Source of the DNA: a virus
IMG/VR virus record: IMGVR_UViG_3300038425_000073
Location: 1 to 37,542 of that record
Strand: one strand, 5' to 3'
DNA: 37,542 nt
Positions 1 through 34,056 of this stretch are shown piece by piece. Position 1 is the stretch's first letter. Every line of letters begins with the position of its first letter. Under the pieces are notes generated by a model, which was given only the letters and a program-made list of their open reading frames with translations, was not told the origin of the DNA and searched no databases. Made by a program: the position numbers and the translations under genes.

Positions 1-1226
1 TCCACCCAATCAAGAAGACCATCACAGTCACCCCTGTCCTTGACCAATACTTCTTGAAATATGCACACAAACTAGGATATGTATTGCCCTGCAAGAGTGG
101 ATACAACCAGAGACCCAAATATACAGGAGCATGGGTCGAAGTCTACGAGAGAGGGTTCTTCGACAACGTGCTTCAGTTCGATGTTGATTCCCTGTATCCC
201 AACGTGATACTTGCATACAAACTGGCCCCGCAAGGCCACTTCGACCTCATAGAACCTATAGTCCGTGACCTCTTGGCTGGCAAACGCAATGCTAAAGACA
301 AGGTAGAAAGGTGGGCCTACAAGATTTCGGTCAACGCCCTCTACGGCATCTTCGCCAGCACCTTCTACAGATTCAAAGCGGTAGAGGTCTCAGACCAGAC
401 CTGCTTTCATGGAAGAGACATCCTCACCCACACGGCAGAGTTCCTGAGAAGTCTGGGCTATGTGGTCTACTACATGGACACAGACTCCATCTTCGTTCAT
501 GGAACGTGGGAAGAGAGGGAGACCATTCACAACCTAATCAACGACTTCGTGAAGCGCACCTACAACATGGACAACATCAAGTTCGGACTTGAGAACCACT
601 GGAAGGTGATAGGGTTCCCCAGAAGCACAAAGGGTGAGAAGGCCAAGAAGAAGTATTACGGCATAGTCCACAGAGACAAGACCGGAGAAGTGGTGAATAG
701 GTTTGAAGAGGCCGGGATGGAGACCCTTAGAGGAGATTGGACTGAACTGGCCCAGATGCTTCAAGAGGCTCTGAAGAAGATGCAAGTCAACGGGGTTCCA
801 AAGGAGAGGATGCTGAACTTCTATGAGGTAACGAAGGTCAACCTCTACAAAGGGCGGTATGACCCCTTGCTAGTGCTTGAGAAGCACATGAGCAAGGATG
901 TCTTAGAGTATGGAAAGGAGAAGATGGGCAAGTCTGGAAAGATGCACAAAGCAGGGATTCCACAGCACGTTAAGGCTTTCAAGAATGCCACTGAGACAGG
1001 GTGGGTTCCCAACGACATGGTGCAATATGGGGTCGTCCAATACTACATGACAGGAAACAACATACCGAAACTCATCAACCTAGTCAAGCCCGGAGAGATA
1101 GACTACCAGTGGTATGTCACGAAGCAGATTGACCCCATCGTGTGGAGACTTGGCATCATCGAAGCCATCACCAAGTATAAGAAAGAGAAGCCAACCAAGG
1201 AAAAGACGAAGCAGACGACCCTCTAG
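1..1226 (+). CDS. polB: Family B DNA polymerase, C-terminal part (5' end outside window)
   Basis: The frame is open from base 3, so the true start lies upstream. It keeps the whole palm: motif A DVDSLYPN (bases 180-203), motif B KISVNALYG shortly after, and motif C YMDTDSIF near base 471. These are the catalytic motifs of family B replicative polymerases. The stretch between motifs A and B is short, without the TPR1-type insertion of protein-primed enzymes, so a conventionally primed polymerase is more likely. The 3'-5' exonuclease domain would be upstream and is not visible; a separate exonuclease gene occurs at 31362-32024. The stop lies two bases from the convergent gene's stop. Expected role: replication of the viral genome. 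Confidence 0.93.
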   Translation, partial: HPIKKTITVTPVLDQYFLKYAHKLGYVLPCKSGYNQRPKYTGAWVEVYERGFFDNVLQFDVDSLYPNVILAYKLAPQGHFDLIEPIVRDLLAGKRNAKDKVERWAYKISVNALYGIFASTFYRFKAVEVSDQTCFHGRDILTHTAEFLRSLGYVVYYMDTDSIFVHGTWEERETIHNLINDFVKRTYNMDNIKFGLENHWKVIGFPRSTKGEKAKKKYYGIVHRDKTGEVVNRFEEAGMETLRGDWTELAQMLQEALKKMQVNGVPKERMLNFYEVTKVNLYKGRYDPLLVLEKHMSKDVLEYGKEKMGKSGKMHKAGIPQHVKAFKNATETGWVPNDMVQYGVVQYYMTGNNIPKLINLVKPGEIDYQWYVTKQIDPIVWRLGIIEAITKYKKEKPTKEKTKQTTL

Positions 1227-13380: not shown

Positions 13381-13575
13381 TTAGACTGTCTCCTCAACAG
13401 TATCGAGTATGCAAACCCAATCTAGGAACGTGATGCTTCCGTCTGCTTCAGTCCGATAGTAGGGCGGTTCACCAAGCGAGAACGGTAAGAAGGTCAGTTC
13501 ACCTTTAGACTCTATCCCTTCCTCTGGGATGTCGCAAATGAGGCCATAATAGACCACCTTAACTGTCTTGCCCAT
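13381..13575 (-). CDS. Small hypothetical protein
   Basis: The 64-aa acidic protein has beta-strand character (GKTVKVVYYGLICDI). It has no cysteine motif or membrane helix and no recognised family. It is divergent from the terminase gene, with its TATA box inside the 38-base gap. The stop lies just upstream of the next operon's TATA box. Confidence 0.68.
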   Translation of the reverse strand: MGKTVKVVYYGLICDIPEEGIESKGELTFLPFSLGEPPYYRTEADGSITFLDWVCILDTVEETV

Positions 13576-13613: not shown

Positions 13614-15167
13614 ATGAGTTCATCGAATGAGCGTCTTCTGAAGGGTCTACAAGAGGAGTTCAACAAGATTAAGGCAAAGGAACCCAAGGACGTTACTCTA
13701 GACCTCAGTGACCCTATGACATTCGTTGAGAACTATGTCAAACTTCCAGAGAAGGCTCCGCCAACTCAGAAGACTTGGTTCGAGCAACGGCCTTGGCTTT
13801 CAGAAATCTACAGAGATGAGCACAAAAGGATAGTCATAGTAAAAGGCCGACAGATGGAAGTCTCCGAGTATGCTGTGAATATGCTCTTCTATTGGGCCGC
13901 AAAGTGGCCGGGAAAGTATATCTACGCCTCTTCGTCAGGTGACAAAGCAGATGTCTTCAGCCATGACCGCTATCAGAAGCAACTCTCTCGAAGCCCTACG
14001 CTCCAAGCCCTTGTGCGAGACGAAGCCGTTAGAAGGGTGCAGTATGCGAAGTCCGAAGTCTACTTCATGACGGCCTACGAAGACACCAAGACCCTCAGAA
14101 GCATTGACGCTGATGGCATCATTCTTGACGAGTTCCAAGACTACAGGGCCAACGCTATCCCCATCGCTGAAGAGGGTCTGGCTCACAGTTCGCTCAAGAG
14201 GCTTTGGGTAATAGGAACTCCCTACCTCACAGGAACCAACTTCTCTAGCAAGTGGGACGAAAGCACAAAGAAGGAGTGGAATAAGGAGAAACAGATATGG
14301 GAAGTGACCAATCCCAAATCGGATGGGATGTGGCAAGGCTATCACATCAGTCAGGAGATGGCAGTAGGACTGTGGCTTACCCCAGAAGAGTTCGAGTATA
14401 GGAGAGCACACAAGCCAACGCAAGAGTTCTGGAACGAGTGTCTGGGATTGTTCTACGCGGGTCTCGGAAGACCAACCGATTACGGATACATGAGTTCCCT
14501 CTTCAGTCCAGCCCTGATGAAAGGGCAGTTCGGGAAGGGCGACCTTCTGATTTCAGGCGTAGATTGGGGCATCTCCAAATCTAACACGGTCTTCTACCTA
14601 ATTCGACCCCGACTTCTAGAGTTGCCAGACATCTACACGATAGACACTCTCTACATTGAGAAGGTGCAGAATCCAGACATAACCAAGCAGATTGCCAGAG
14701 TCGCACAACTTCTCACCACTTTCCCTACCGTTATCAATGTGTTTGACTACGGCACTGGATTCGTCCAAAATCAGGAACTCTACAAACAGTTTGGAAGCCG
14801 CGTAATGCAAGTAGAGTTGGGCAGTGGGAAGTTAGGCAAGCCTCTCGTAGTGGAACAGACAGCCTTCGGTCAGATAGCCAAGGTCAACAGAACGTGGGCT
14901 ATAGACACGGCTATGGATTACGTCACCAAACCGGATAGGTTCAGACTCTACAATGAGACAGACAAGATGACAAAGGACTGGATTATCAAGGACTTTCTGG
15001 CTGAATACCCTGAAACGAGCCAGTCTACTGGAAAGAAGATTTGGATTCACAGTTCCGATGCCACAGACGACTGCCTCATAGCCTTCGTGAATGCGATGAT
15101 TGGCTTCCAAATCCAGAAGTCTGCCGCCATGCCAGAGCGTGTAGAGGACATGATTTCCTTTGTCTAG
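13614..15167 (+). CDS. terL: Terminase large subunit (DNA packaging ATPase/nuclease)
   Basis: The 517-aa protein has both terminase domains. In the ATPase domain, VKGRQMEVSEYA (77-88) is the variant Walker A motif, IILDEFQDY (169-177) the Walker B with catalytic E173, and VIGTPY (199-204) the coupling motif. In the RNase H-like nuclease domain, D317 (GVDWG), D378 (FDYGTG) and the D485/D486 pair (TDDCLIAF) fit the metal-binding acidic triad. It drives headful or site-specific packaging at the portal. The position equivalent to the usual Walker A glycine is Glu (QMEVSE), a noticeable variation. No small subunit was firmly identified. Confidence 0.93.
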   Translation: MSSSNERLLKGLQEEFNKIKAKEPKDVTLDLSDPMTFVENYVKLPEKAPPTQKTWFEQRPWLSEIYRDEHKRIVIVKGRQMEVSEYAVNMLFYWAAKWPGKYIYASSSGDKADVFSHDRYQKQLSRSPTLQALVRDEAVRRVQYAKSEVYFMTAYEDTKTLRSIDADGIILDEFQDYRANAIPIAEEGLAHSSLKRLWVIGTPYLTGTNFSSKWDESTKKEWNKEKQIWEVTNPKSDGMWQGYHISQEMAVGLWLTPEEFEYRRAHKPTQEFWNECLGLFYAGLGRPTDYGYMSSLFSPALMKGQFGKGDLLISGVDWGISKSNTVFYLIRPRLLELPDIYTIDTLYIEKVQNPDITKQIARVAQLLTTFPTVINVFDYGTGFVQNQELYKQFGSRVMQVELGSGKLGKPLVVEQTAFGQIAKVNRTWAIDTAMDYVTKPDRFRLYNETDKMTKDWIIKDFLAEYPETSQSTGKKIWIHSSDATDDCLIAFVNAMIGFQIQKSAAMPERVEDMISFV

Positions 15168-18238: not shown

Positions 18239-19078
18239 TTAGAGCGCACCTTCTTCTTTGGAAGATAGATAGGGATGTGCTTCTCTTCCAGTCTTATTGA
18301 GAGAAGACATTTCATTCCAAAATTCCTTTTTCAACTCGCTCTTTCTAGGAAGCCCTAAGAATTGAAGGGCAAGTTCGGCTTGTTTTCGTTTAATCTTAAG
18401 ATAGGGTAAAATCATTCCCAAAAAATTGGTCATCTCATCTTTAGACATGAGATACCATCTTTTACTATCGTTCCAAGTTGGATGTTTCTTTATAGACCGT
18501 CTATGTTCATAGACTGTGCCACCAAATTTAGACTGTAACCAATTAACAACCTCTGATTTTACCATGTCTACTTGGATTTGTAATTGGTATCTGTCTCGCA
18601 CATGACCCTTTCCTAATGTTTCTTTCTTTGCATGATATATCTTGATACATCCTTCTCCATCTATAATGCCAGCCGCATAAGCCAAATCAGATTCGGAAAT
18701 TGTAGAAGTAGACGCTGTGAAGTTAGGTATATCCATCAATTCCTTTGGCAAAAGACCATGTTCTATCATTTCTTCAGTATGAATTGCACTTGCAAGATTC
18801 CATGCTCCCGCAGATAAATGGTCTTCATCCTTCAATCCTTCTCGATATTCATTAATGTGTCTCAATGCACTATCCAAAAAACGACCTATTGGAATGCCTT
18901 TCGACCAATTCCAATCTCCATACTTGACAGCCCCGTTCTCATAGTGTCTGGCCAGCCTACGAAGGAAGATAGGGCTTATGAGGTCGAACCGTCCCTTTCC
19001 TTGTTGGATGTCCCGCACCGCACCTGTCTTGAACTTCTGTCGCGTTCCACTGTCCTTGACCTTCTTGTAGTCTATCAT
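18239..19078 (-). CDS. MazG-like (d)NTP diphosphohydrolase domain fused to a LAGLIDADG endonuclease domain
   Basis: The product is 279 aa. Residues ~15-110 match the phage dATP/dGTP diphosphohydrolase N-terminal family: GKGRFDLISP, the ENGAVKYGDWNWSKG block, RHINEY and DEDHLSAGAWNLAS. The C-terminal part carries LAYAAGIIDGEG (132-143), a LAGLIDADG motif with D140 and E142, and a single-domain homing-endonuclease-like body. There is one continuous frame with no splice-junction cysteine, so it is a fusion rather than an intein. DNA from about 18290 to 18900 is visibly richer in A/T than the flanks, including part of the hydrolase domain. It overlaps the upstream gene by four bases (ATGA). Confidence 0.85.
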   Translation of the reverse strand: MIDYKKVKDSGTRQKFKTGAVRDIQQGKGRFDLISPIFLRRLARHYENGAVKYGDWNWSKGIPIGRFLDSALRHINEYREGLKDEDHLSAGAWNLASAIHTEEMIEHGLLPKELMDIPNFTASTSTISESDLAYAAGIIDGEGCIKIYHAKKETLGKGHVRDRYQLQIQVDMVKSEVVNWLQSKFGGTVYEHRRSIKKHPTWNDSKRWYLMSKDEMTNFLGMILPYLKIKRKQAELALQFLGLPRKSELKKEFWNEMSSLNKTGREAHPYLSSKEEGAL

Positions 19079-28460: not shown

Positions 28461-28643
28461 TTATTTCCCCCACTTCTCAGGAGACACACCACTACCCTCT
28501 GTGATTACTTGAACGCGCCCACAAGTATAGCAGACGTAGTATGAGACAGACCAATAGACCAAACCTTCATATCTGCCCGGATGATAGCCCCGCATCAAGT
28601 CCATGAATCTATCATGACACCATACACCTATAGGGCCATTCAT
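28461..28643 (-). CDS. 60-aa hypothetical protein
   Basis: The Tyr/Trp/Gly-rich protein contains a CYTCG pair near its middle and no other obvious metal ligands except C9 and H10. It is coupled to the upstream gene by an ATGA overlap and followed by the cysteine-rich gene. No family recognised. Confidence 0.65.
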   Translation of the reverse strand: MNGPIGVWCHDRFMDLMRGYHPGRYEGLVYWSVSYYVCYTCGRVQVITEGSGVSPEKWGK

Positions 28644-28903
28644 TCTTTCTCATCCCAATGAAGGATTACATCGGCTCTGTAAGCCTCTGCACATTCAGCC
28701 GCCCCATCTTGTTTGTAGAGCAAAGTATACTGGTCTCGCTTGATGTCATACTCTATAGCAACAAACTTGGCATCTTCTGGAATTTGGCTTTCTACTCTAA
28801 ACTTCTTGTTGCTTCCTTGAAGGAGTTTACCTAGAGCCTCTCTAGAGGCCAGAATGTAGAACTTTGCAGGAAATGGAACGTCTAGTGGTTCTAGTTCTTT
28901 CAT
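28640..28903 (-). CDS. 87-aa hypothetical protein
   Basis: The protein is a small alpha/beta fold: strand KFYILAS, helix EALGKLLQG, strands FVAIEYDI and YTLLYKQ, helix CAEAYRADVIL. It has ATGA overlaps on both sides, with uS2 upstream and the 60-aa gene downstream. No family recognised. Confidence 0.7.
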   Translation of the reverse strand: MKELEPLDVPFPAKFYILASREALGKLLQGSNKKFRVESQIPEDAKFVAIEYDIKRDQYTLLYKQDGAAECAEAYRADVILHWDEKE

Positions 28904-29622
28904 TCTTCCTTTCCACCCTCTTCCCCTTTCTCCTCTTTCTCTGGCATCTTTGTCTCAAAGTCCTCTACTCCAAGAGGTTCTGTCGTTTCATACTTGAAGA
29001 TGTCGTCTGCTCCCATCGCTTCTAACCATCCGCTATGAATAAGGATAGACCGAGCCAGAAGATAGTAGACGGTGGCGATGGCCTTGGCTCCTACGTTGTT
29101 AGCAGGGATAGCGATGTCAACATCCTCAAAGGTGGCGTTGGTGTTGCAAACGGCTATGACAGGGATGCCTATGCTAGAGGCTTCAAACATGGCCCGTCTG
29201 TCTCCCATCATGGCTTGGCCTATCTTTTTTGGGACTCCATTGGTGGGGTCTGAGACCACCAGACAGTCAACGTCCATATAACTCGCTATCTTCGTATTGG
29301 TGAGACTCCCTGCTATGAGACGGTGGGTGACTATTGGAATGCGAGTCGCATCGTGAAACGACTTGAGAGCATTGGCGAATCTGGGGTCGGTAGCATAGAA
29401 AAGAGGCTTCGTGGCAGAGTCTTTCCCTGTCCAACTTATGTGCTTGCCCACCACATCCAATCTTTCCAGAATCTTGTTGACATCCATAATGGGGTTGCCA
29501 GTTGGTGCAATCTCAGTGATGTATGGGGTCATGTCCTTACTCACATGGCCTTTGATTCCGATGTGGATGCCAGTGGCCTTGAGAGCGTCCTCTGTAAGTG
29601 TCTTAGGAAGAATAAGACTCAT
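28900..29622 (-). CDS. rps2: Virus-encoded ribosomal protein uS2 (archaeal type)
   Basis: The 240-aa product begins at ATG 29622; an upstream in-frame start at 29679 is excluded by the 33-codon gene. The sequence follows archaeal uS2 from end to end: TGIHIGIKGHVSKDMTPYI, a lDv..iLERL helix, YATDPRFANALKSF, HRLIAGSLTNTKIASYMD, CLVVSDPTNG, GIPVIAVCNTNATFEDVDIAIPANN, AIATVYYLLARSIL and VEDFETKM, with an acidic tail. In the archaeal 30S subunit uS2 binds near the mRNA exit and the Shine-Dalgarno helix. Some usually conserved residues differ (SDPTNG for TDPRAD), so it could compete with or modify host ribosomes. It is in an ATGA-coupled operon. Confidence 0.9.
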   Translation of the reverse strand: MSLILPKTLTEDALKATGIHIGIKGHVSKDMTPYITEIAPTGNPIMDVNKILERLDVVGKHISWTGKDSATKPLFYATDPRFANALKSFHDATRIPIVTHRLIAGSLTNTKIASYMDVDCLVVSDPTNGVPKKIGQAMMGDRRAMFEASSIGIPVIAVCNTNATFEDVDIAIPANNVGAKAIATVYYLLARSILIHSGWLEAMGADDIFKYETTEPLGVEDFETKMPEKEEKGEEGGKEE

Positions 29623-29720
29623 GGTAGTAGACCAAACACCTTTAGTGCGATTAAGGCAGAAATGCACACACCTGTCCATGTTCCCAATGTGCGAAGTTGC
29701 TCCAATGTCAATAGTCTCAT
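29619..29720 (-). CDS. 33-aa membrane microprotein bridging DHH and uS2 genes
   Basis: The gene runs from ATG 29720 to TGA 29619-29621. The start overlaps the DHH gene's stop (ATGA) and its own stop overlaps the uS2 start (ATGA), so it fits the gap exactly. The protein has a polar N-terminus (MRLLTLEQLRTL) and one hydrophobic helix (GVCISALIALKVFGLLP). A single-span peptide might anchor or regulate; otherwise it may serve to relay ribosomes to uS2. Too short for similarity evidence. Confidence 0.65.
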   Translation of the reverse strand: MRLLTLEQLRTLGTWTGVCISALIALKVFGLLP

Positions 29721-30931
29721 TGGAGACTCGCCTCTACCGCCCTTATGAGTTCGTCCAACACCGCCTCTGGGTTGTTGGTGTGCGTCTTGGCAGACCCCGC
29801 TTGCTTCAGACCGCCACCTTCCATGATGGTTGGATTGGCCATTCTGAAGACCTTGCCTATATGAAGTTGGCTGTCTGAGACCCCGTTTCGTCCAGAGACA
29901 TGGACTCCATATTTGGGGATGGTGTTGATGACGAACCAAGGCTTCTTGTTCTGGCCACCCAACTTGTTGGCCATCGCAGAGCCAATGTTCCATTCGTGAC
30001 TGATGATGGAGACCCCGTAAGTTTTCCAAGACTCGATGCCTCTATCATAGTAGGGGAACTCCAACTTCACGTTGTTCTTCCAGTCCTCAGTGACCTTCTT
30101 GAACTCTGGCTTATACTTGATGTGGTTCAAGGCCATCATCTGAGTATTAGGGTTCTTGCCACCCTCAAACAAAGAAGACGTTAAGGCTCCTTTAGTTATC
30201 ATAGTGTAGAGGTCTAGCCAGTTGGGTATCTGCTCCATCTCCTTCATACCCTCATAACAGAAGGGTGGTGCGGCATTGAAGACCATCCTGCGCTGGACAT
30301 GGAGCAACTGAGCATAGAAGTCTATGAGACCCCAATTATAGCCCAGATTCGCCTCTGTCGCTAGAAGTCCTTTGAGGCCACCATGTCTCATCAGAATCTC
30401 GTTGTAAATGGGGCCACCCTCTTGGCTGTCGCTTGCTACATCGCCTCTGAGTCCTAGCAAGGCCCACTTCTCCATGTTGGCGATTGGCCACTGGCTCTGT
30501 TGAGCCATCTTGTAGACGATGCCAGTCGTGCAGTTCTCGTTTGAGGACTCGTAGTAGAACGAAGGAAAGTCCCTTAATCCCTGAAGAAGAGAGGAGTATT
30601 TCGCCATGTCCTCTTTAGTTTCGACTTCCTTATCGGGTGGATGATTGTCCAAAACCACGACTCTCATACCCGTCTTCAGAAGGTCGGATGCCTTTTGAAG
30701 TATGTCCAAACCGCTTCCCAAGTCTAGGATGAATGCGGTCTCTGGATGGAATGACTTGATGACATCAACATCCCCTTGTGAGATGCCAAACGTATCCCAA
30801 TCTTGCCATCTGATGATGTGCTTCGAGTTAGGCTGCGTAAGGGTTAATGCGTTGTGGACTATCCTAGTAGCGCACATCCCATCCGTGTCTTCATCGGTCA
30901 TAATGACCGTATCTTTGTTGTCGGTTGTCAC
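29717..30931 (-). CDS. DHH-family phosphoesterase (RecJ/GAN-like)
   Basis: The 404-aa protein starts with GTG. DHH-family metal motifs are seen in order: I MTDEDTDG (D13, D15, D17), II FILDLGSG (D70), III VVLDNHPP (D95, N96, H97, replacing the DHH triad) and IV GLRGDVASD (D164). The C-terminal part ends with GGGLKQAGSAKTHTN, resembling the substrate-binding DHHA1 motif. Family members are 5'-3' exonucleases or oligonucleotidases; archaeal relatives work with the replisome. It is coupled to the 72-aa gene by GTGA and to the microprotein by ATGA. Confidence 0.85.
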   Translation of the reverse strand: MTTDNKDTVIMTDEDTDGMCATRIVHNALTLTQPNSKHIIRWQDWDTFGISQGDVDVIKSFHPETAFILDLGSGLDILQKASDLLKTGMRVVVLDNHPPDKEVETKEDMAKYSSLLQGLRDFPSFYYESSNENCTTGIVYKMAQQSQWPIANMEKWALLGLRGDVASDSQEGGPIYNEILMRHGGLKGLLATEANLGYNWGLIDFYAQLLHVQRRMVFNAAPPFCYEGMKEMEQIPNWLDLYTMITKGALTSSLFEGGKNPNTQMMALNHIKYKPEFKKVTEDWKNNVKLEFPYYDRGIESWKTYGVSIISHEWNIGSAMANKLGGQNKKPWFVINTIPKYGVHVSGRNGVSDSQLHIGKVFRMANPTIMEGGGLKQAGSAKTHTNNPEAVLDELIRAVEASLQ

Positions 30932-31146
30932 GCTTTCTCACCCGCTACCGCACCAACACCTTTCTTCAGACCAAAGCCGTCTTCGAGTCTAAACATGACA
31001 GCATGATTCACGTTTATCTCTTCTGGCATCGGAATGGTCTTCTCGAACCTCTCTCCGTTTTCGCCCGTTACAATTACTGTAAGGGTTCCGTCCTTACTTA
31101 TCTTGAAGGGGCCGAAGTCTCCTTCCCACAATGTTTCTGTTTTCAT
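30928..31146 (-). CDS. 72-aa hypothetical protein
   Basis: The protein is beta-rich: strand pairs (DFGPFKISKDGTLTVIVTG) and an aliphatic C-terminal segment (HAVMFRLEDGFGLKKG). It heads the transcription unit that runs through the DHH, uS2 and small-protein genes, with a TATA box 23-32 bases upstream. No family recognised. Confidence 0.7.
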   Translation of the reverse strand: MKTETLWEGDFGPFKISKDGTLTVIVTGENGERFEKTIPMPEEINVNHAVMFRLEDGFGLKKGVGAVAGEKA

Positions 31147-31168: not shown

Positions 31169-31178
31169 TATTTAAGGA
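31169..31178 (-). promoter_or_regulatory. TATA box for the DHH-uS2 operon
   Basis: The minus strand reads TCCTTAAATA, 23-32 bases before ATG 31146. It is the only recognised strong promoter before the whole 2.8-kb operon; a weaker CCTTAATCG element (29649-29657) lies before uS2. Confidence 0.75.
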
Positions 31179-31361: not shown

Positions 31362-32024
31362 CTAAAGAGACTTCCTGTTTCCTTTCATGAAGGTCTCTAG
31401 TTTCTTGTGGACTTCCTCAAGAACGACAACATCCTGTTTGTTGTGCTGAACGATGTAACTCATCGAATGAGGGTTGACCATTGCGGTCTTCCAGATGGTC
31501 GGTTCTAGGGGTGACTTCTCTTCCACATGGAGTAAAGACGCTACAGAGGCTAGTCTGTTGGAGTGCAACTGTAGTTTGCTCTTGACCAGATAGTAGAGGT
31601 CAACGTGCTGAATCTCTCCATAGGCAGGGAACTCAAGACCCCAATCCAAGGCTCTCGTCCTAATCATAGGCATATCGAAGCCAGTTCCGTAGTAAGTATA
31701 GAGAACATCAAACTTTCTCATGGTGTCTATACAAGCCTGAGTCGTTCTCTTGTCGAAAGTCTCAGCAAGTGGTTCGTCTGGAACCTGCATACAGTCCCAG
31801 AGAATTTCTTTAGGAGAACTATCTCGCGGCTTGATTGCCCATGAATACATGATGTTGAAGTCTCCCTGTAGACCGTTGGCTTCAATATCTAGATAGCCTA
31901 GTCTCAGGTCTTTGCTCATGTATTCCTCTTGGAACCTTCGCCAGCAGTTCGGATGTCCTTCGCCAGTGTGCGCGTGTTCGCACTTCCACAGCGCGGGACT
32001 AATCAGTGGTTTCTTACCTTTCAT
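31362..32024 (-). CDS. RNase H-like 3'-5' exonuclease (DEDD type)
   Basis: The product is 220 aa. DEDD motifs appear as LGYLDIEANG (D46, E48), YGTGFDMPMI (D117), HVDLYYL (D142) and HNKQDVVVL (D198), the pattern of YprB/DnaQ-like nucleases. The N-terminus has C15, H17, H19, H24 and C27 (KCEHAHTGEGHPNCW), a possible extra metal site that is uncommon in such exonucleases. It could proofread for the viral polymerase or degrade DNA. Leaderless behind a TATA box, it is co-transcribed with the 56-aa gene. Confidence 0.83.
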   Translation of the reverse strand: MKGKKPLISPALWKCEHAHTGEGHPNCWRRFQEEYMSKDLRLGYLDIEANGLQGDFNIMYSWAIKPRDSSPKEILWDCMQVPDEPLAETFDKRTTQACIDTMRKFDVLYTYYGTGFDMPMIRTRALDWGLEFPAYGEIQHVDLYYLVKSKLQLHSNRLASVASLLHVEEKSPLEPTIWKTAMVNPHSMSYIVQHNKQDVVVLEEVHKKLETFMKGNRKSL

Positions 32025-32985: not shown

Positions 32986-34056
32986 TTACACGAAGGTTAT
33001 GTCGAGAGCCGTGAGAACGTCTGAGATGTGGTTCCCAATGGTTGTGTTGCCACCGCCAGCGAACAGTAGGGCAACGGCCATCTGGTCACTTTGTCTCATG
33101 ATTAGGGAGCCAGAGTCTCCGCCAGCACTGAATGGAGTAGTCGTGTCCTGAGTGATGACCTGTTCCACGAAGGTTGCCTCATTGGAACCGCTATAGCTGA
33201 CAGTGATGGTTCCAGCGATGTCTATCACCTGCCCAGAAGTGACTCCTGTAGTGCGCCCTGTCTTGGTCACAATGTCTCCATCTATGGCCGCACTTATCCC
33301 TGCCGGAGAGAACAGCCCGTTCTCTTCTGGTTTGAAGTTGGTCTGGTCATTGAGAGTGGCCCAAGCACAGTCTACCAGATTGCTTGCGAGTTGGTGAACT
33401 ATGGGATGTAGTCGTGTCTTTCTCTTGAGTTCCTTGGCCAGCCCGTTGTAAACACCAGAGATGAATGTCGCATTGGGGCAATTGCTTGGCTGTGCGTTGT
33501 CATACTGGATGGGAATGAAGTTGGTGAGTTTGGCCACTTGACTGGTCAGTAGAGTGCCGCCGTCATATGCTCCCGGCTGAAGGATGGGGTCTCCTATACT
33601 CGCGTTGTTCTCATTGGCCAAAACGTGGTTGTTACTCAGGATGCCGATGTGACCTGATGCGTCCTTCACGAAGTAGTCTATCGTGCCAGCCGTAATCTCG
33701 TAGTGACCTACGCTGATTCCACCTATGAGTGGCCGGAACGCCTTCGTTGGGTCTTGAAAGGGTGGAGCCGACCTTATCTTCTGGTGGCCAATCTCCACGA
33801 TGTCAACGGGCGTGGTCATCTTAAACTTTCCGTCGCCCATGTCTATCATCCATTCTATCTCGTCTGGGATGGTCTGAAATATGGCCAGTTGAGAAGTGGG
33901 AATCTTCTTTTCGACATAGACCCTTATCGCCTTGCGACCCGTCTTTTTGCCGCCAGCGATTTCGTCCTTCAGGTCTTCGCTATACCCATTGACATTCGGG
34001 TAGGTAGCGCGAATCTCTTTCAGTTTCTCTATCAGTTTCGGATGAAGATTACCCAT
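32986..34056 (-). CDS. Trypsin-like serine protease
   Basis: The product is 356 aa. The chymotrypsin-fold catalytic triad can be read: H144 (LSNNHVLANEN), D229 (NLVDCAWATL) and S315 (SAGGDSGSLIM). Before it, residues ~40-90 (RKAIRVYVEKKIP ... PVDIVEIG) form a prodomain-like region, and GGISVGHYEITAGTI leads into the protease. This matches a prokaryotic S1-type family with a GDSG serine motif and no signal peptide. In a virus it could mature capsid proteins, act on the host or be carried in the virion; prohead proteases are usually of other folds. Leaderless behind a TATA box. Confidence 0.85.
   Translation of the reverse strand: MGNLHPKLIEKLKEIRATYPNVNGYSEDLKDEIAGGKKTGRKAIRVYVEKKIPTSQLAIFQTIPDEIEWMIDMGDGKFKMTTPVDIVEIGHQKIRSAPPFQDPTKAFRPLIGGISVGHYEITAGTIDYFVKDASGHIGILSNNHVLANENNASIGDPILQPGAYDGGTLLTSQVAKLTNFIPIQYDNAQPSNCPNATFISGVYNGLAKELKRKTRLHPIVHQLASNLVDCAWATLNDQTNFKPEENGLFSPAGISAAIDGDIVTKTGRTTGVTSGQVIDIAGTITVSYSGSNEATFVEQVITQDTTTPFSAGGDSGSLIMRQSDQMAVALLFAGGGNTTIGNHISDVLTALDITFV

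Follow-up and report, generated by a model that had tools for sequence, protein, structure and literature searches.

Most of the ribosomal proteins so far recorded from viruses are small, exchangeable proteins of the bacterial kind. Bacteriophages encode bS21, bL12, bL9, bL31, bL33 and others (PMC6375957); uS2 is not mentioned in the main text of that survey, nor in the main text of a 2026 jumbo-cyanophage paper. Among archaeal viruses, L21e is encoded by Hafunaviridae (PMC8651126) and bL19 by Kunpengvirus (PMC10848311), and no small-subunit ribosomal protein of an archaeal virus is reported in either paper. Here we describe a uS2 gene in an archaeal virus, which appears to be new: the open-access main texts credit archaeal viruses with only L21e and bL19, and a listing elsewhere (in supplements, preprints or subscription papers) is possible.

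In the archaeal 30S subunit, uS2 is located at the end of the Shine-Dalgarno exit chamber (PMC7005279), and its bacterial counterpart is one of the last to be incorporated (PMC10931766). E. coli ribosomes without bS1 and uS2 favour leaderless mRNA (PMC7531240). E. coli ribosomes take up the phage proteins bS21 and bL12, and with phage bS21 in them in-vitro synthesis falls to about 5% (PMC6375957).

The stretch of DNA analysed (the window) spans 37.5 kb and is a record of IMG/VR. Its uS2 homologue is a minus-strand ORF, with an ATG at 29622 and a stop codon ending at 28900; the plus strand has no open frame at the same coordinates (28900-29622). An alternative upstream start at 29679 would give a 259-aa version. 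The start is taken as 29622, since the relatives begin at the equivalent ATG (MS-ILPK). The features discussed below are as follows.

13614..15167, plus strand: terminase large subunit, a virus hallmark (profile matches)
28640..28903, minus strand: 87-aa ORF overlapping the uS2 stop codon (ORF calls)
28900..29622, minus strand: uS2 homologue, 240 aa (Pfam and NCBIfam, start kept in relatives, predicted structure)
29206..29241, minus strand: codons of a 12-aa insertion in uS2, residues 128-139 (alignments)
29717..30931, minus strand: DHH-DHHA1 phosphoesterase-like gene directly upstream of uS2 (Pfam DHH, 2.8e-7)
30928..31146, minus strand: 72-aa ORF that opens the operon and overlaps the start of the DHH gene (ORF calls)
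31169..31177, minus strand: TATA-like box CCTTAAATA, 23-31 nt ahead of the first ATG of the operon (sequence and genome-wide pattern)
31362..32024, minus strand: DEDD exonuclease-like protein (RNase_H_2), a conserved upstream neighbour (Pfam)

The protein matches Pfam PF00318 (Ribosomal_S2) with an E value of 1.9e-16 and 60.5 bits, which passes the gathering cut-off of 26.1 bits, and its viral relatives score 38-63 bits. With NCBIfam TIGR01012 (uS2_euk_arch) the match has an E value of 5.8e-35 and 120.6 bits, which is under the equivalog cut-off of 211.5 bits, where passing means the same function as cellular uS2. The five viral proteins score 108-132 bits against this profile and five cellular archaeal controls 229-285, so that the viral score is about half. 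Passing the first profile while falling far under the second cut-off indicates a member of the uS2 family, but a strongly diverged one. The original prediction had placed a full-length archaeal uS2 at 28900-29622, with HIG, RLIAGSLTN, VSDP, CNTN and PANN blocks. All of these blocks are present and the interval stands, the gene being on the minus strand, where the prediction had given no strand; its proposed check against archaeal uS2 profiles upholds the family but not the equivalog level.

The ORF is not a chance reading frame, because it is kept in four other IMG/VR contigs of 91-107 kb, at 50-79% identity. The closest is L003 (105 kb, 79% identity to the window protein), followed by L004/L006 (106 kb, about 65%), L005 (91 kb, 62%) and L087 (107 kb, about 50%). 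The window matches L003, L004/L006 and L005 gene by gene along its length, and L087 shares the neighbouring genes in the 20.6-kb stretch around uS2 that was compared. A chromosomal chimera at this locus, which the original prediction had named as a possible objection, is ruled out by the collinearity with three longer viral contigs and by the neighbourhood common to the fourth. It is concluded that a chimera is excluded for practical purposes, and that the gene is in a bona fide virus genome.

The genome is that of an archaeal virus, as had been predicted, and of a tailed one. Virus genes of the window include the terminase (phrog_675, 1e-49), a tail tube protein, a tail protein and a family B DNA polymerase, while capsid and portal genes are present in a 105-kb relative (G001). 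The nearest matches of the terminase large subunit in GenBank phages are in Bacillus and related phages, at 23-27%. A Pfam scan of G001 (L118-L123) also found a PriX primase subunit, an RPA/SSB OB fold, a HerA-like ATPase, a SET domain and an RlaP RNA-repair polymerase-like protein. No other ribosomal protein was found by Pfam among 69 proteins of the 105-kb relative, outside the stretch that matches most of the window. There are no tRNAs in the window or its relatives, and neither the Rfam search nor the PADLOC defence models gave a match. Two further genes of the window are noted here. The minus-strand gene at 18239-19078 has the N-terminal domain of a dATP/dGTP diphosphohydrolase followed by a LAGLIDADG endonuclease domain in a single frame; a homing element may have been inserted, because the gene is shorter at this position in two relatives (L125 and L133). 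The gene at 32986-34056 (minus strand) encodes a protease-related protein (Nal1_C, 1.4e-6), with a match in the closest relative only.

PHROGs has no uS2 family, and a search of GenBank phage records with the viral uS2 gave no match. Phage records do contain bacterial-type uS2, found with an E. coli probe or a Nitrososphaeria probe, and these matches look like host contamination. Several records labelled phage in the phage collection (H24-H31) are of this kind; a 290-kb Salmonella record in the collection holds a uS2 with 97.5% identity to that of E. coli.

In a tree of 59 rows, the five viral uS2s are monophyletic with full support. They group with 14 uS2s of Nitrososphaeria (support 97/91) and are separate from Bathyarchaeia and the remaining groups of archaea. 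The stem of the viral clade is long, at 1.5 changes per column. Group profiles agree with the tree, giving the window protein 165 bits for Nitrososphaeria, 134 for euryarchaea, 123 for Asgard and 120 for Bathyarchaeia. In the AU test, neither a grouping with Bathyarchaeia (p 0.065) nor one with another clade of the Nitrososphaeria class (p 0.27) was formally rejected. Bathyarchaeia were suggested as the source by the first match list, and became less favoured once the Nitrososphaeria sequences had been added, the AU test not being decisive. An origin nearest to Nitrososphaeria is the most likely on these sequences, though not decisively. The host probably also belongs to this class.

The gene has been under purifying selection, with dN/dS of 0.15 for the window and L003 and 0.14 for L004 and L005, these being the two unsaturated pairs. 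No viral-type uS2, either proviral or cellular, was present in 657 genomes of Nitrososphaeria and Bathyarchaeia: a profile of the viral proteins matched at most once per genome at the threshold used, and the best genome match had 154 bits, compared to 382 for the most divergent viral copy. Homologues of the terminase were found in 10 of 400 Nitrososphaeria genomes and 1 of 257 Bathyarchaeia genomes; all are distant, so they do not decide the host. The simplest reading is a single old capture of uS2 that has been maintained since, and uS2 has been fixed for a long time across a divergent virus lineage.

The viral proteins were compared with cellular uS2 at 30 near-invariant columns, each at least 90% conserved among 55 cellular representatives. 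At 24 of them the residue is retained in at least four of the five viral proteins. The remaining six are altered, which agrees with the original prediction that several normally invariant sites differ: the K of DVxK, R to D in the SARxY segment, both F and P of RFxPG, Q to R at the start of the DxQA helix, and W to Y. The viral copies also carry a 1-aa insertion in the N-terminal glycine loop and the 12-aa insertion listed above, which follows the DP loop (window numbering), is present in all five and absent from cellular proteins in the alignments, and is itself conserved around GxPxKIG. A virus-specific effect is best sought in this insertion. The C-terminal IEDFETK tail is shared with uS2 of Nitrososphaeria, the nearest cellular group. 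A loss of RNA binding might show as a shift in overall charge, but no such shift was seen, the pI of the viral core being inside the cellular range. Given this pI and the 24 retained columns, the binding surfaces look broadly preserved.

An AlphaFold2 model made with viral and cellular rows has pLDDT 89.8 and pTM 0.87; the 56 cellular uS2s in the alignment helped, since the five viral rows alone gave pLDDT 56. The model superimposes on archaeal uS2 chains with Z of 27.5-27.7 at 1.5-1.8 Å, and its Foldseek match to P. furiosus uS2 has an E value of 5e-19 and TM(target) of 0.91 (Z 27.6). The predicted fold is full-length, as in cellular archaeal uS2, and by profile, alignment and model the protein is of archaeal type.

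The surroundings of the gene are also conserved. The operon runs from the TATA-like box through the 72-aa ORF, the DHH gene and uS2 to the 87-aa ORF, and the box is the predicted leaderless-type promoter. The DHH gene precedes uS2 in five of five viruses, and in every IMG/VR contig where this DHH gene was found uS2 comes after it, with an endonuclease VII homologue intervening in L005. A small ORF follows uS2 in all relatives, in a conserved position but with a poorly conserved sequence. The DHH protein falls outside RecJ/GAN both by score (45.4 bits for the RecJ_archaeal equivalog, cut-off 360) and by motif, which reads DNH in all five viral proteins.

Many leaderless messages had been predicted for this virus, and the promoters point the same way. 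A TATA-like box starts 40-24 nt before the ATG in 38-52% of lead genes in the five viruses, in a sharp peak, compared to 1-3% in shuffled sequences. Shine-Dalgarno matches in the window are at the shuffled level (30% vs 31%) and in the relatives at most mildly above it. Window lead genes with such boxes, on both strands, include those starting at 13575, 20115, 24525, 32769, 34394 and 34473. In archaeal promoters, a TATA box at this spacing places the transcription start at or near the ATG, and the spacing would therefore imply that the viral mRNAs are mostly leaderless. Stretches of Nitrososphaeria genomes have the same peak, though weaker (5-21%), whereas Bathyarchaeia loci have none and are enriched in Shine-Dalgarno sequences (38% vs 12% for matches of 5 or more), so a host of Nitrososphaeria type fits better; these fractions are rough, gene starts being crudely predicted and the Bathyarchaeia sample being 16 lead genes.

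The most likely role of the viral protein is to take the place of host uS2 in the 30S subunit, where the mRNA exit chamber ends, because the fold is preserved, the invariant sites are mostly kept and purifying selection has been long; we consider the case for it evenly balanced. The analysis shows the homology, the virus context, the conservation and selection of the gene, its insertion, the operon and the leaderless-type promoters, whereas the host class, entry into ribosomes and any effect on translation are inferred. In the scheme that we propose, the gene would have been captured by an ancestor of these archaeal tailed viruses, most likely from a Nitrososphaeria host, and retained as a fixed gene in the DHH-phosphoesterase operon. 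The protein would be produced during infection and, uS2 being a late and external addition to the small subunit, would take over from the host copy in 30S subunits that are newly assembled or undergo exchange. Once in place at the end of the exit chamber, its insertion and changed surface residues could alter which messages or factors this region accepts, and so favour the mostly leaderless viral transcripts or shield ribosomes from host control. Specialised ribosomes are a tentative extension of this: the virus-only exit-chamber loop would switch the 30S subunit to leaderless viral messages, or away from Shine-Dalgarno messages of the host, and the linked DHH phosphoesterase might contribute by an action on RNA. 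Some leaderless-type spacing is also seen in Nitrososphaeria genomes, which weakens the case for a special need for leaderless translation; with the same TATA peak, the host may already translate leaderless mRNA, so that the gene need not serve to retune ribosomes in that direction.

The differences from cellular uS2 count against replacement, in particular changes such as R to D, Q to R and W to Y among the six altered sites. Given the scores of 108-132 bits and the long stem, the protein may no longer do its cellular job. Poor activity would suit a shut-off or decoy function, in which viral uS2 enters the 30S subunit or titrates the partners of uS2 and lowers host translation as a dominant negative. 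The altered sites and the low equivalog score could be read in this way, and the effect of phage bS21 is a precedent. We think it unlikely, however: most structural and near-invariant residues are conserved, and the late viral genes depend on these same ribosomes, with no second translation system or tRNA encoded by the virus.

A role away from the ribosome is doubtful to a similar degree. Here the uS2 fold would bind RNA or protein in partnership with the co-transcribed DHH phosphoesterase, guiding for instance RNA turnover or virus replication, as might be suggested by the strict order of the two genes in all five viruses, together with the long stem, the shared insertion and the sub-equivalog scores. 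The linkage may however reflect only the timing of expression, and such a role would need fewer of the near-invariant residues than the 24 that are kept. A plain dosage supplement, keeping up the supply of uS2 when host expression is off with ribosome properties unchanged, would be consistent with the preserved fold, the purifying selection and the single host copy per genome, but a retained virus-specific insertion and changed invariant sites are not expected from it, and we regard it as very improbable. As a universal and essential 30S protein by the mRNA exit chamber, long fixed in a virus lineage and with a conserved insertion of its own, viral uS2 is a strong candidate for a virus protein that remodels the site of translation initiation, and a concrete protein with which specialised ribosomes and leaderless initiation in archaea can be tested.

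In comparison with known systems, viral uS2 resembles the phage ribosomal proteins (PMC6375957) in being host-derived, fixed in tailed viruses, under purifying selection and a late-assembling component. It differs from them in being universal, essential and large (240 aa here), and fixed across a whole divergent lineage. The arrangement of PolB and a DEDDy exonuclease on separate genes in Kunpengvirus, a virus of Bathyarchaeia (PMC10848311), is the same as in the window, where the polymerase gene (3-1226, plus strand) is distant from the DEDD exonuclease-like gene. Like L21e of Hafunaviridae (PMC8651126) and bL19 of Kunpengvirus (PMC10848311), viral uS2 is a ribosomal protein in an archaeal tailed virus; unlike these two, which are both from the large subunit, it is a protein of the small subunit.
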